37,571 bases of DNA from a virus. Below are positions 28,721 through 37,501 of this stretch, piece after piece (the first letter of the stretch is position 1; each line of letters starts with the position of its first letter). Where the stretch lies: positions 1-37,571 of the IMG/VR virus record IMGVR_UViG_3300035670_000647; one strand, written 5' to 3'. The position numbers and the translations under genes were made by a program. Under the pieces are notes generated by a model. It did no database searches. It was not told the origin of the DNA and saw only the letters and a program-made list of their open reading frames with translations.

Positions 28721-28797
28721 TGGCGCGACCGGAAGGATTTGAACCCTCAACCGGCTGGGTAGAATCCAGCGGCTCTGTCCAGTTGAGCTACGGTCGC
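28721..28797 (-). tRNA. tRNA-Arg (anticodon UCU)
   Basis: On the minus strand GCGACCG (28797-28791) pairs with CGGTCGC, followed by a G and encoded CCA. The D arm is GCTC/GAGC. The anticodon arm is GCTGG/CCAGC around ATTCTAC, giving UCU. The T arm is GAGGG-TTCAAAT-CCTTC. All stems and invariant loop bases are present. It reads AGA, a codon rare in many high-GC hosts. It lies within the minus-strand early genes. Confidence 0.95.
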
Positions 28798-29229: not shown

Positions 29230-29445
29230 TCAGCCTCGCTTATGCATCTGATTCACAGCCTCAGCCAATAGGTTCCCCAAGGGTGAATAGCTGAGGTATT
29301 CATCCCTGCCCAGCACTGTTATCCAGCACCCAGCACACCCATGAGGCAGCGATTCATTCATCAAGGCTCTTGTCTCACCATGGAAGCCCTGACTTATCCA
29401 GTCCCTCGCTGACAGGCTGGACGCATAACCGGGGTGAATCGGCAT
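29230..29445 (-). CDS. Small hypothetical protein downstream of the C4-like RNA
   Basis: The start is taken at MPIHPGYASSLSARDWISQG, after the structured RNA; a longer form would run through the RNA. The 71-residue product continues CAGCWITVLGRDEYLSYSPL and ends MHKRG, one base before the next ATG. In P1-like phages the gene after a C4 RNA is the regulated target, so this is a candidate target. The minus strand also holds ACCCTTGG near 29280, complementary to the 3' end of the RNA. The ribosome site is weak. Confidence 0.45.
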   Translation of the reverse strand: MPIHPGYASSLSARDWISQGFHGETRALMNESLPHGCAGCWITVLGRDEYLSYSPLGNLLAEAVNQMHKRG

Positions 29446-29515
29446 ACGGTGTTCTTTGGGTGCAGCCCATGCAGGCCCGTTAGCTGTGTCAATTCGCGCC
29501 CTGACGGTAGAAAGC

Positions 29516-29585
29516 AAAAACCCTTGGTGTCTGCTCCCCGCGCTCGAACCGCGTCCCATTTAAGGGAGGGAACAGAAACCAAGGG
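29516..29585 (-). ncRNA. C4-like antisense RNA candidate
   Basis: On the minus strand CCCTTGGTTTCTGTTCCC (29585-29568) pairs with GGGAGCAGACACCAAGGG (29538-29521), 18 positions with two mismatches. Inside, TCCC-TTAAAT-GGGA (29567-29554) and CGCG-GTTCGAG-CGCG (29553-29539) fill the interior exactly, giving a three-way junction with no unpaired linker. Five T residues follow (29520-29516). The second hairpin is complementary over 13 bases to 29613-29601 just upstream in the same strand. This is the design of the C4 RNAs of P1/P7-type phages, which silence an antirepressor region. Family identity is from memory of the architecture, not a covariance search. Confidence 0.55.
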
Positions 29586-29600
29586 CCTCTGTACTGTCTT

Positions 29601-29613
29601 GCGGTTCGAGCGC
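29601..29613 (-). repeat. Upstream complement of the C4-like RNA hairpin
   Basis: GCGCTCGAACCGC (minus strand) is the exact complement of GCGGTTCGAGCGC at 29552-29540. If both helices form, the RNA is a pseudoknot. As an antisense target, it would correspond to the self-complementary sites known around C4 genes. Confidence 0.6.
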
Positions 29614-29624
29614 TTGACCATGTG

Positions 29625-29651
29625 ATTATGCCACCAAAATGGCTTTGTAAA
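29625..29651 (-). promoter_or_regulatory. Possible promoter for the C4-like RNA
   Basis: On the minus strand TTTACA (29651-29646) and CATAAT (29630-29625) are separated by 15 bases, a little short. A start seven bases on would place the complement at 29613-29601 at the 5' end of the RNA. It overlaps the end of the preceding gene. Confidence 0.35.
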
Positions 29652-29883
29652 TAGCCGCTTGCATCTGTTCTTCAATGCTTTTCAGCTCGTCGGTCTGCGC
29701 GGGGTTCTTTGCCGCCCAAATCGCGTACCGTAGAAGCACCTCCAGCAGATCAGGGGCAGCGGCCATAAGCTGAGCATTCTGCTCCCGATTCTCTGCCGCG
29801 TACAGCTTGCAGATGTGAAAGCCCGTTTCTGTCACCACGTAGCGGCTCTCACGTTTCCACGGGCCGGGGCTGTATCCGGTCAT
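29626..29883 (-). CDS. Conserved phage protein (SPGPWK / AAAPDLLEVL family)
   Basis: The start at 29883 overlaps the upstream TGA. The 85-residue product begins MTGYSPGPWKRESRYVVTET and contains REQNAQLMAAAPDLLEVLLR. This combination is widespread in phage early genes and often just called hypothetical; it suggests a small alpha/beta domain. Role unknown. Confidence 0.65.
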   Translation of the reverse strand: MTGYSPGPWKRESRYVVTETGFHICKLYAAENREQNAQLMAAAPDLLEVLLRYAIWAAKNPAQTDELKSIEEQMQAAIYKAILVA

Positions 29884-32631: not shown

Positions 32632-32658
32632 ACGCCCATCAACAACCCAACAGGAGCA

Positions 32659-33444
32659 ATGATGAAACATCAAATCAAACACCGCTACACCGATGACGTA
32701 CTCTATGAGTGCGATGTGTCCGAGGACATGGAAAGCGGTTTGTATACGCGTCATGCGCTGGAACAAGCCGCGAAAAGCGGTGCCGACCTGAGCGGTGCCT
32801 ACCTGAGCGGTGCCGACCTGCGCGGTGCCGACCTGCGCGGTGCCTACCTGAGCGGTGCCGACCTGAGCGGTGCCGACCTGCGCGGTGCCTACCTGAGCGG
32901 TGCCGACCTGAGCGGTGCCGACCTGAGCGGTGCCGACCTGAGCGGTGCCGACCTGCGCGGTGCCTACCTGAGCGGTGCCGACCTGAGCGGTGCCGACCTG
33001 CGCGGTGCCTACCTGAGCGGTGCCGACCTGCGCGGTGCCTACCTGAGCGGTGCCGATGGTAAGCAACTGCCACGCGCTACGTCTGAGCAAGCTATCGAGA
33101 ATCTGGACAAAGTACGCGCCATCGTTCTTGACAACCGCGACCGGCTCAACATGGGCCATTGGCACGGTGATGATTCGTGGCGTGAGAAAACCTGCGCCGA
33201 AGAAACGCTGTGCGGCACCACTCATTGCATGGCTGGCTGGCTGCAAGTCTGCACGACTGAGGCCGCGCTGAAAGACATTGATACTCAGCTTGCTGGAACG
33301 CTGGCTGCTCCGGTAGCGGCAAAGATGTTCTTCCGTAGCGATGCTGAGGCGCTGGAATGGCTGGAATCTCGGGCCTACGTTGCCGAGACTGAGGAAGCAG
33401 AACGCCTCGCCGCTGAACGCAAGGCGAAGAAAGGAAACGCATGA
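32659..33444 (+). CDS. Pentapeptide-repeat protein with phage-specific C-terminal domain
   Basis: The start is the first ATG of AGGAGCAATGATG. The 261-residue product has a 40-residue head (MMKHQIKHRYTDDVLYECDV). Eighteen perfect A(D/Y)L-type pentapeptides (GADLS, GADLR, GAYLS) follow, predicting a right-handed square beta-helix as in MfpA/Qnr DNA mimics. The C-terminal domain has LDNRDRLNMGHWHGDDSWRE, CGTTHCMAGWLQVCTTEAAL and AEALEWLESRAYVAETEEAE. It is the first gene of the rightward arm, so an early host-takeover or gyrase-related role is conceivable, but no direct evidence exists. The stop overlaps the next start. Confidence 0.8.
   Translation: MMKHQIKHRYTDDVLYECDVSEDMESGLYTRHALEQAAKSGADLSGAYLSGADLRGADLRGAYLSGADLSGADLRGAYLSGADLSGADLSGADLSGADLRGAYLSGADLSGADLRGAYLSGADLRGAYLSGADGKQLPRATSEQAIENLDKVRAIVLDNRDRLNMGHWHGDDSWREKTCAEETLCGTTHCMAGWLQVCTTEAALKDIDTQLAGTLAAPVAAKMFFRSDAEALEWLESRAYVAETEEAERLAAERKAKKGNA
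32779..33048 (+). repeat. Eighteen tandem 15-base coding repeats
   Basis: Every unit reads GGTGCC-NAC-CTG-NGC, with only G or T at the seventh base and A or C at the thirteenth; the other 13 bases never change. A partial unit follows at 33049. Larger three-unit blocks (DR-YS-DS) recur, which suggests growth by slippage or unequal exchange. Confidence 0.95.
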
Positions 33445-33764
33445 AACTCACCGAGTCCACAATCACCGGCCCCATCTGTCGCACGCTGCGAACGGATGCG
33501 GGCCTGACACAGCGCGAGTTTTGGGTATCGTTCGGTGTCACGCAAAACGCCGGGAGCCAGTACGAGAACGGGAAGAATCCTCTACCCGCTTCGATCAGAA
33601 AGCTGGTCTACGCATGGCACTCCAAAGACGCGCCCGTAGTCCGAAGCACAGCCGAGGCCGATGCGCTACGGTCTGAGCTTGAGGCAACGCGCAAACGCGC
33701 ACATCGTCTGTCGAAAGCTGCCAAGGCTGCACGGCGGGCGCTCACAAACGCACTGAATTCTTGA
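33441..33764 (+). CDS. XRE-family helix-turn-helix regulator
   Basis: The 107-residue product holds an HTH of the type LRTDAGLTQREFWVSFGVTQ followed by NAGSQYENGKN, with an altered but readable helix-turn-helix. A lysine/arginine-rich coiled C-terminus follows (EATRKRAHRLSKAAKAARRA). Regulators with LTQREFW are common near the early promoters of phages. It lies second in the rightward operon and could act on the divergent promoter region. Confidence 0.75.
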   Translation: MKLTESTITGPICRTLRTDAGLTQREFWVSFGVTQNAGSQYENGKNPLPASIRKLVYAWHSKDAPVVRSTAEADALRSELEATRKRAHRLSKAAKAARRALTNALNS

Positions 33765-33773
33765 AAGGCACAC

Positions 33774-34199
33774 ATGGCACATATCACAGGTATTTTCAGG
33801 CTGGGCAAAGATGCCGAACTCCGGTATACAGCTTCTAGCGAGCCGGTCGTTAGCGTTGCTTTGGCGTACAACTACGGCAAGAAAGGCGACAACGGCCAGC
33901 GTCCTAGCCAGTGGATTGAAGCCGCCATGTTTGGCAAGCGTGCCGAGGCTCTGGCGCAGTACCTGACGAAAGGTAGCCAAATCTCCGCGCTGCTGTCTGA
34001 CCCGCATATCCAGACGTACCAAAAAAAGGACGGCGGCGAAGGATTCAAGCTGTCGGCCAAGGTCGTGGACATTGAGTTGATCGGCGGGCGTCAAGAGGCA
34101 GCGCCAGCACGCGCACCACGGCCAGCGCCTGCACCGGCACGCCAAGCGCCCGCACAGAGCAGCGGATTTGACGACATGGACGATGACATTCCGTTTTAA
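33774..34199 (+). CDS. ssb: Single-stranded DNA-binding protein
   Basis: The 141-residue product has an OB-fold start (MAHITGIFRLGKDAELRYTA, VVSVALAYNYGKKGDNGQRP, QWIEAAMFGKRAEALAQYL). A Pro/Ala-rich linker follows, and the acidic tip DDDIPF that SSBs use to recruit partner proteins. It probably coats replication and recombination intermediates and could cooperate with Erf. Confidence 0.93.
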   Translation: MAHITGIFRLGKDAELRYTASSEPVVSVALAYNYGKKGDNGQRPSQWIEAAMFGKRAEALAQYLTKGSQISALLSDPHIQTYQKKDGGEGFKLSAKVVDIELIGGRQEAAPARAPRPAPAPARQAPAQSSGFDDMDDDIPF

Positions 34200-35150: not shown

Positions 35151-36287
35151 ATGGAGCAAACGCAATTGGAGCTGGAAACCACGATCAGCAAAGAGGCCGT
35201 TATTGAATGGCTGCGCGATCAAGCCTCATTGGGCATTGATGCTCGGGCCGAACTGGTTAACGAGCTACGCGAGGCGATCCACGAAATTTCCCCGTTCAAG
35301 ACTGAGCCGGTTGATTACGTCAAGTGGGTGAAATCTCCCGCAGTCCACGCGAACGATTACAACCCCAACAGCGTAGCGCCGCCAGAAATGGAGCTTCTGC
35401 GCGTCTCAATTGACGCTGACGGCTATACGCAACCTATCGTTACGATGCTGCACGACGGGCAGCATGAGGTTATCGACGGTTTTCACCGTCACCGCGTGGG
35501 TAAAGAATGCGCCGACATTCAAGCCCGCGTGCATGGTTACTTGCCGGTGGTGCAGATTCGCGCCAGCCAGACGGACAAGTCCGATCGCATGGCATCTACC
35601 ATCCGCCACAACCGCGCCCGAGGCAAACACAAGGTCGAAGCCATGAGTGACATTGTGATTGAACTCAAGCGCCGCAACTGGACGGATGAAAAGATCGCAA
35701 AAAACCTGGGCATGGATGCTGATGAGGTTCTAAGGCTGTGCCAGATTACCGGACTGGCCGAAGCATTCAAAGACCAGTCATTCTCCGAAGCATGGGAAGT
35801 TGACCGAGGCGAAGCCATCAACGGCGAAATTCTGAGCGACGTTATCCCCGACTTTGAGGCGAACGACCGTGGCCGCGTGTATCACACATGGGAAAAGTGG
35901 GAGTGCTTCCGCGCTGGCTTCTATGCCGAACGCTGCGAAGGCATGACGCAAGAGGAAGGCGAGGAAAAGTATCGGGAATTTCTGGCCGACCTTGACAAGT
36001 TCCGCGATGCGCTAGAGCATGTCGTTGGCGAGTGGAAATACTCATGCGAACACTATCTGACGAACGACCGCATGAACCGCATAGCGTGGCTGGGTCAAGC
36101 GTCCGTGGCCTACGCGCTGGGCATTCCTTCGCTGTGTCGTGGTGGGTATCACCGACTCACCGAGGAGCAAAAGAAAGCGGCTGACGATTTGGCGCTGGAA
36201 TACCTCAACAAGTGGCTTGTGTCCAATGGCCGCGCTGAGGTTGACTACGACAAGGCCGGTGGCCGCACAGAGGCGGAGCTTTACTAA
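35151..36287 (+). CDS. ParB/Srx-fold protein, IbrB-like
   Basis: The 378-residue product has a ParB-like N-terminal domain (about 55-190). The strand-turn VKSPAVHANDYNPNSVAPPE comes first, then the nucleotide-binding-type motif DGFHRHRVGKE (GFHRHR, 110-115) and HNRARGKHKVEAMSDIVIEL with an HTH-like segment (LKRRNWTDEKIAKNLGMDAD). The C-terminal 150 residues (HTWEKWECFRAGFYAERCEG, LTNDRMNRIAWLGQASVAYA) are specific to this family. It stops one base into the PAPS-reductase-like gene, the pairing described as IbrB/IbrA in E. coli. The molecular function is not known. Confidence 0.75.
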   Translation: MEQTQLELETTISKEAVIEWLRDQASLGIDARAELVNELREAIHEISPFKTEPVDYVKWVKSPAVHANDYNPNSVAPPEMELLRVSIDADGYTQPIVTMLHDGQHEVIDGFHRHRVGKECADIQARVHGYLPVVQIRASQTDKSDRMASTIRHNRARGKHKVEAMSDIVIELKRRNWTDEKIAKNLGMDADEVLRLCQITGLAEAFKDQSFSEAWEVDRGEAINGEILSDVIPDFEANDRGRVYHTWEKWECFRAGFYAERCEGMTQEEGEEKYREFLADLDKFRDALEHVVGEWKYSCEHYLTNDRMNRIAWLGQASVAYALGIPSLCRGGYHRLTEEQKKAADDLALEYLNKWLVSNGRAEVDYDKAGGRTEAELY

Positions 36288-37501
36288 TGGCAACGATCAA
36301 GAAACGAGTTGGCATTGATGTGCTGACAGCGGCGCGTAACCGCATCCGATACACCTTTGACCACTTTGAACGGGTTTACATCTCGTTCTCTGCTGGCAAG
36401 GATTCAAGCGTGATGTTTCACCTTGTCATGGACGAGGCCATCAAGCGAGGCCGCAAGGTAGGCGTTCTGCTGATTGACCTAGAAGCCCAGTATCACCTAA
36501 CCATCAAGCACGCGGAAGACATGTTCCGCCTGTACGCCGACCACATCGAGCTTTACTGGGTGTGCCTTCCCATCAAACTACGAAACGCAGTGAGCAATTA
36601 TGAGCCTGTCTGGTGTGCCTGGGATCCTGAAAAACGCGACGACTGGGTTCGTCCCATGCCGAAAGGATTGGGCGTCATTTCCGATCCATCGTTTTTTGAT
36701 TTTTTCCAACCCCGCATGGAGTTTGAGGAATTTATCGAACTGTTCGCAGTCTGGTACGGACAGGGCCGAACCACTGCCGCATTCATCGGAATCCGAGCTG
36801 ACGAAAGTCTAAACCGCTTCCGCACCATAGCGGTTTGGGACAAGGAAACCCACTTCGGTAAACGCTGGACAACCAAAGTCATTGACGAGGTTTACAACGT
36901 TTATCCGATCTACGATTGGCACGTTACCGACATTTGGAAGTATCACGCCGCTTTCCCTGAGAAGCCTCATAACGAGGTTTACGACCGGATGCAGCTTGCC
37001 GGTGTGTCACTGAGCCAGATGCGCCTTTGCCAGCCCTACGGCGACGACCAGCGGCGCGGCCTGTGGCTCTACCACCTGATTGAGCCGCAGACATGGGGCA
37101 AGGTTGTAGCGCGTGTCAACGGCGCGAACTCTGGCGCTCTTTACATTGAGGAAACCGGAAATGTCACCGGCTACAACAAGGTAACGCTTCCGCCTGGGCA
37201 TACGTGGCGTAGTTTCACCAATCTGCTGCTGGCGACAATGCCTCAAGTCACCCGAGAGCACTACACCAAGCGTTTCCGCGAGTGGTTGCTTGGCTGGCAC
37301 AAGCGCGGCTATCGTGAAGGAATCCCTGACTATGCCCCGCGTGAGTTGGAGAAAAAGTATTGGGCACCATCATGGCGGCGCATGGCTAAGGTTTTGCTTC
37401 GCAATGACTGGTGGTGCAAGGGGTTAGGACTCCAGCAACCAAAAAGCGCCGCATATCAGCGGTACATGGAACTTAAACGAGCACAGAAAGAGGCAGCATG
37501 A
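36287..37501 (+). CDS. PAPS-reductase-like PP-loop protein, IbrA-like
   Basis: The 404-residue product has the PP-loop of N-type ATP pyrophosphatases (SFSAGKDSSVM, motif at 35-40). FIGIRADESLNRFRTIAVWD and VYPIYDWHVTDIWKYHAAFP are typical of the DUF3440/IbrA branch of the PAPS-reductase superfamily; DndC belongs to the wider fold. It is likely to activate a substrate with ATP, perhaps for sulfur chemistry. The gene overlaps the ParB-like gene by one base and mazG by four. Confidence 0.8.
   Translation: MATIKKRVGIDVLTAARNRIRYTFDHFERVYISFSAGKDSSVMFHLVMDEAIKRGRKVGVLLIDLEAQYHLTIKHAEDMFRLYADHIELYWVCLPIKLRNAVSNYEPVWCAWDPEKRDDWVRPMPKGLGVISDPSFFDFFQPRMEFEEFIELFAVWYGQGRTTAAFIGIRADESLNRFRTIAVWDKETHFGKRWTTKVIDEVYNVYPIYDWHVTDIWKYHAAFPEKPHNEVYDRMQLAGVSLSQMRLCQPYGDDQRRGLWLYHLIEPQTWGKVVARVNGANSGALYIEETGNVTGYNKVTLPPGHTWRSFTNLLLATMPQVTREHYTKRFREWLLGWHKRGYREGIPDYAPRELEKKYWAPSWRRMAKVLLRNDWWCKGLGLQQPKSAAYQRYMELKRAQKEAA

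Follow-up and report, generated by a model that had tools for sequence, protein, structure and literature searches.

A choice between two mutually exclusive RNA folds underlies control by RNA I and RNA II of ColE1 as well as attenuation of the pT181 type, and the complementary loops of these systems diversify between types. The specificity elements of the C4 RNAs of phages P1 and P7 differ between the two types (PMC5320573), and for the large ornate RNAs GOLLD and ROOL homo-oligomers have been reported (PMC12286853). The window analyzed here, a viral DNA of 37,571 nucleotides (IMG/VR record IMGVR_UViG_3300035670_000647), carries on its minus strand a phage RNA element of about 350 nt (about 29619-29268), the 5' third of which forms a module that is followed by a 3' domain. 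Two hypervariable, always self-matching elements of this module, b and b', suggest an RNA on/off switch, and this switch may distinguish one phage's RNA from that of another.

In the window, the minus strand from 29586 to 29515 folds into a three-way junction (MFE -42.4 kcal/mol, z = -6.3, equaled by 0 of 200 shuffles). An outer helix of 9 bp, one U x C mismatch and a further 9 bp is formed by the strands 29586-29568 and 29538-29520, and its interior is fully occupied by the hairpins P2 (29567-29554) and P3 (29553-29539) with zero unpaired bases. UUUUU (29520-29516) directly follows the junction and makes up an intrinsic-terminator-like structure with the outer helix. This is the gap-free junction with a T5 run that had been described in an earlier note on this DNA, and the 13-base self-complement claimed there is equally exact, since 29613-29601 (GCGCTCGAACCGC, element b) perfectly complements 29552-29540 (element b'), which lies inside P3. 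Taken together, junction and complement are far beyond chance because relatives keep the same architecture in different sequences: counterparts of the outer helix are sequence-divergent, and P2 is conserved in position and variable in sequence. Element b is displayed by a 5' hairpin of the form GUC-AA-[b]-AA-GAC (29618-29596, minus strand), for which the relatives have GUUGYC-[b]-RCAAC. The 3' strand of the outer helix (GGGGAGCAGA) can also pair with UUUGCUUUCU, and the resulting alternative hairpin (29538-29509, minus strand) competes with the terminator.

On the same strand a -10 sequence, CATAAT (29630-29625), is preceded by a -35-like TTTACA (29651-29646) at a spacing of 15 nt, which is below ideal, and the predicted transcription start lies at about 29619-29617. 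In most typical members of the family a TAnnnT -10 sequence ends 6-7 nt before the 5' hairpin, and transcription is therefore predicted to start at that hairpin. Promoter and terminator are predictions made from sequence, and we infer that the element is a stand-alone RNA gene with a promoter-like sequence of its own. Terminator-like helix and U-run characterize most members, and just one of the 5'-module types seen is without them. A T run of at least four residues precedes the 3' domain of 54 of the 65 members; five of the remaining ones carry an extra domain inserted at that place, and L159 lacks the U-run.

The 5' region also shows larger variations. L138, L179, L133, L139 and L119 have an extra domain of 100-200 nt that precedes the 3' domain or sits at its beginning and is closed by a long perfect stem in several cases. 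Within that of L119 (5790-5855, plus strand) a fold resembling a tRNA, but with a very short anticodon arm, scores 33.6 bits with the Rfam tRNA model, with a weak Y-RNA-like match and no ARAGORN call. In L149, L153, L189, L132 and L159 larger, different helices replace the C4-like module, and most of these still have a U-run at their end; L153 and L189 have retained a b:b' pair of 9-12 bp.

The first relative, L002, was found with the peptide of the supposed downstream gene. Its DNA has the same architecture in other letters (GTGTTCGCACCAC...GTGGTGCGAACAC) with a different outer helix, and its 79-nt fold reaches z = -6.35. The next relatives were L115, from a prophage-like region in Hydrogenophaga, and L116; BLASTN with the latter retrieved MW202484, a public podovirus genome of 41.8 kb that carries the RNA. 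A core motif is common to 14 contigs, two of which (L121 and L126) resemble unrelated coding sequence. A wide viral pattern, CTGCATGGNCNGNAN{168,198}TYCACCCTWG, matched at least 80 viral contigs, and the matches listed comprise 68 distinct sequences including 65 real members, a collection biased by the fixed letters of the pattern. L134, L141 and L169 matched it as well and were judged false by sequence, without a match to model R1. The exact 13-mer inverted pair had no match across IMG/VR, owing to the hypervariability of the element; a BLASTN search with the window region found nothing in phages and plasmids, and a GTDB pattern search of about 770 bacterial genomes returned one true match and one false one.

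Members of the family, about 65 of them in metagenomic phages, adjoin genes for replication initiation proteins, major capsid, terminase, portal and methyltransferases, and the RNA is absent from all 93 loci selected for having the exonuclease of the window or the small gene upstream of it. This variation of neighbors and the missing linkage indicate that the RNA moves as a unit; common descent with the exonuclease or the small gene is argued against by the same loci. Judged by its genomic contexts, the element acts like a phage RNA gene that is mobile or inherited independently. In MW202484 the RNA (33533-33892, equivalent to L131 5913-6272) is overlain by an annotated hypothetical protein, UOF77725.1, which is probably a spurious gene call. 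The window itself contains a tRNA-Arg (anticodon tct; 28721-28797, minus strand), which lies between the RNA gene and the terminase genes, about 470 bases downstream of the former. Around 32648-33054 it encodes the N-terminal part of an Erf-like protein with a pentapeptide-type repeat, the DNA of which has matches of 81-91% in many phages of Rheinheimera and Salmonella, and ParB-like and PAPS-reductase genes at about 35268-37265 show a match of 68% over 2 kb to Microcystis phage Mwe-JY13.

The stretch 29506-29268 (minus strand, CGTCAGGGCGCG ... CACCCTTGGGGAACCTA) is a covarying structured RNA domain of about 240 nt. In an alignment of 43 sequences, 38 pairs in seven helices are paired in 95.4% of the cells, as compared to no more than 48% after a shift of 1-3 columns. 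Double changes affect 255 cells, against 52-66 after such a shift, and none of these measures is reached by any of 500 shuffles. Covariation in related phages, on which the earlier note had made its RNA depend, is thus present and very strong. Furthermore, G-U pairs are retained in the helices, and model R1 scores the 3' domain of the window, a member of its own training set, with 93.9 bits. Helix 1 is paired in 99.1% of the cells and is near-invariant, such that it contributes no covariation evidence. The near-invariant CACCCTTGG (29285-29277, minus strand) would close the domain by pairing with CAGGG near 29506. At this very position the sequence ACCCTTGG had been noticed near 29280 as a complement of the RNA's 3' strand; the sequence is present, but the match is not family-wide and was rejected because the outer helix is variable, in contrast to the nearly invariant CACCCUWGG. 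The more likely partner of CACCCUWGG is CAGGG, situated where the 3' domain starts. A search of 29230-29640 with Rfam 15 at E<=10 gave only chance-level matches to MIR394 and SNORD99, leaving the 3' domain without an Rfam family.

These data bear on several other explanations of the locus. The open reading frame 29230-29559, in which a target in trans had been proposed, is very unlikely to be a gene. It is open for 109 codons in the window, and L115 retains part of the frame; on the other hand, no more than 6 of 65 members have the window's frame uninterrupted across the 3' domain, its product has no family match, and compensatory pairs run all through the stretch. That it encodes a protein and contains the hairpins as incidental sequence is hardly conceivable, and the presumed target is itself a structured RNA. 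The element might instead be a riboswitch-like cis-regulatory leader, with the 3' domain as sensor and the conserved GGGGAACCTATG as ribosome site of the next gene. Many members do have GGAG/GGGG...ATG after the 3' domain, and some have a gene that begins no farther than about 40 nt away. We consider this improbable, as the conserved ATG opens just 3-8 codons in many members, the capsid-gene group has a promoter-like TTGACA there instead, and the genes downstream are unrelated between phages. Varied genomic positions, with some copies adjoining terminase or replication-initiation genes, could also be expected of an element acting as DNA, namely an origin, a packaging site or a mobile element whose strands fold by happenstance. 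The spacing from promoter to 5' hairpin, the orientation of the U-run and the retained G-U pairs indicate RNA, however, and leave only a faint chance for such a DNA element.

The same holds for a true C4 antisense RNA acting in trans to repress an antirepressor or another gene, which we regard as very improbable. The topology is that of P1 C4, and a target-like element is present in the 5'-end hairpin of the same transcript, comparable to a1/b1. However, 29400-29700 and 29230-29640 have no match to the Rfam C4 model (RF01695) even at E<=10, nor have twelve further relatives at E<=3 or 5, while C4 of P1 scores 68.8 bits in the same library. The CCACC-type 3' tail of the C4 model is absent and UUUUU stands in its place. 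A second, a2/b2-type target at a downstream ribosome site was not found in the genome, and no complement of b' longer than 9 nt exists elsewhere on its minus strand; the single 9-mer is at about chance level. No icd/ant antirepressor family was recognized among the window proteins scanned, so that the earlier note's statement on missing P1-type immunity genes holds for these proteins. Finally, one true match in about 770 bacterial genomes is little sign of use in lysogeny. By these tests the element is not a member of the C4 family; the C4-like RNA that had been proposed stands with respect to topology and the upstream partner in a hairpin and falls with respect to family membership. By analogy, the element may nevertheless work like C4.

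Pairing between b and b' is kept in typical members of the family, and the sequences of the two elements are hypervariable. Among 28 distinct typical members with 19 different 7-mers, b being taken as the 7-mer defined by position in the 5' hairpin, b:b' is paired at 7/7 positions in 27 and at 6/7 in one. When partners are swapped between members only 4.28 of 7 positions pair, and 0 of 10000 permutations reach the observed sum. The two elements always occur in cis. In 17 non-independent pairs of members with 3' domains at least 97% identical, b differs at a mean of 1.94 of 5 positions with pairing kept. Between L145 and L154, 8 of 382 columns are different, and four of these differences constitute two compensated b:b' pairs. 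Elements b and b' therefore turn over much faster than the rest of the RNA, including the longer outer helix. Such changes could arise without selection if quasi-palindrome correction copied one arm onto the other. Diversifying selection on b/b' is, tentatively, the better reading, since comparable turnover is not seen in the longer arms of the outer helix.

Formation of b:b' and of the terminator exclude each other in the window and in four of the five relatives nearest to it in type. The best b:b' fold lies 0.0 (window), 1.1 (L115), 2.4 (L116), 1.6 (L117) and 0.0 (L130) kcal/mol above the best overall fold, and in L143, which belongs to the window's own subtype, the terminator is favored by 7.8 kcal/mol, all energies disregarding pseudoknots and co-transcriptional kinetics. 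The b:b' helix of this subtype comprises 11-15 bp, and in the b:b' fold the 3' arm of the terminator is paired with a downstream GCUUUC. This competing hairpin is kept with matching changes, as GCGUUCC in L115 and GCGUUU in L143. In the modeled folds, the layout of the window subtype is that of an attenuator. The large subtype has a b:b' helix of just 7-8 bp, and replacement of the outer helix mostly costs about 15-25 kcal/mol; the median cost of an exclusive b:b' fold over all 51 members tested is 18.8 kcal/mol. No exclusive switch is thus apparent in the 7-8 bp subtype, where b:b' is too short to replace the outer helix and a pseudoknot or an intermolecular contact is to be assumed.

We tentatively put forward, with confidence slightly below even, that the element is a terminator/antiterminator switch that controls read-through into the 3' RNA and resembles C4 in its logic. 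The 5' module would act as an attenuator. Pairing of b with b' in cis, together with the alternative hairpin occupying the 3' arm of the terminator, would allow polymerase to read into the 3' domain, and loss of b:b' would cause termination. The terminated short RNA would have a free b' with which it could trap b of newly made transcripts of its own type. Such a role of b/b' in trans could bring about self-limiting and type-specific control in the manner of C4, and the rapid compensated change of b/b' would reflect selection for type specificity. Most likely, the system would serve to adjust the amount of 3' RNA in the course of infection and to ignore RNAs of co-infecting phages of other types. 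This switch is supported by the folds at z of about -6.3 in window and relative, the pairing of 27 of 28 members with their own b', the -10 sequence upstream of the 5' hairpin and the terminator-like helix with U-run in most members, the near-equal folds (0-2.4 kcal/mol) with a compensated competing hairpin, the compensated turnover of b and the covariation of the 3' domain, as well as by the lack of another target in the phage genome and the variable neighboring genes. The energy cost in the large subtype, the 7.8 kcal/mol of L143 and the missing U-run of L159 weaken it.

A minority possibility that has to be taken seriously is that b:b' is a structural contact within one large RNA, either a pseudoknot in cis or a kissing interaction between molecules that would yield homo-oligomers as in GOLLD/ROOL or phi29 pRNA, with the U-run being structural or incidental. 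In the large subtype b resides in the loop of the 5' hairpin and b' in the junction, and with a terminator fold that is better by about 19 kcal/mol a contact without unfolding is the sole option there. Retention of the combined RNA across very different genome contexts also fits. A structural contact leaves unexplained, however, why b/b' change faster and the longer outer helix more slowly. Furthermore, a near-perfect intrinsic terminator in the middle of the RNA would be costly, and the window subtype is balanced between two folds. A more far-reaching proposal, namely self/non-self discrimination based on RNA only, in which b/b' would be an identity tag under diversifying selection and the short RNA of a phage's own type would control a conserved effector RNA, appears rather unlikely.

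Literature searches yielded no description of the element, and its core sequence gave only a chance match to a primer. A structured RNA of about 350 nt that occurs in dozens of apparently unrelated phages and has no match in Rfam is a target for phage RNA biology, and the compensated hypervariability of b/b' leads to the testable prediction of type-specific RNA recognition between co-infecting phages. On its own, the 5' module would be a C4-like or attenuator variant; the novelty rests on the RNA as a whole, for the main (3') domain of which no known relative was found here.

In comparison with known systems, the element shares with P1/P7 C4 an outer helix of about 17-18 bp, a small P2 hairpin, a complementary element beside the 3' strand of the outer helix and elements that differ between types, here represented by b/b'. 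As for a1/b1 of P1 C4 (RF03163; target sites as annotated in AF234172), the partner precedes the complementary element on one transcript and apparently resides in a hairpin. It differs from C4 in lacking a2/b2 near a downstream ribosome site and icd/ant, whereas P1 C4 is devoid of the RNA domain of about 240 nt that follows here (L114, no R1 match). GOLLD and ROOL are likewise large, structured, phage-associated RNAs of unknown function, but the element described here is much shorter, has no Rfam match and carries a terminator and hypervariable paired elements. With ColE1 RNA I/II and pT181 it has in common the choice between exclusive folds and the diversifying complementary loops. Unlike in those systems, target and effector share strand and transcript, and the regulated product is apparently another non-coding RNA.
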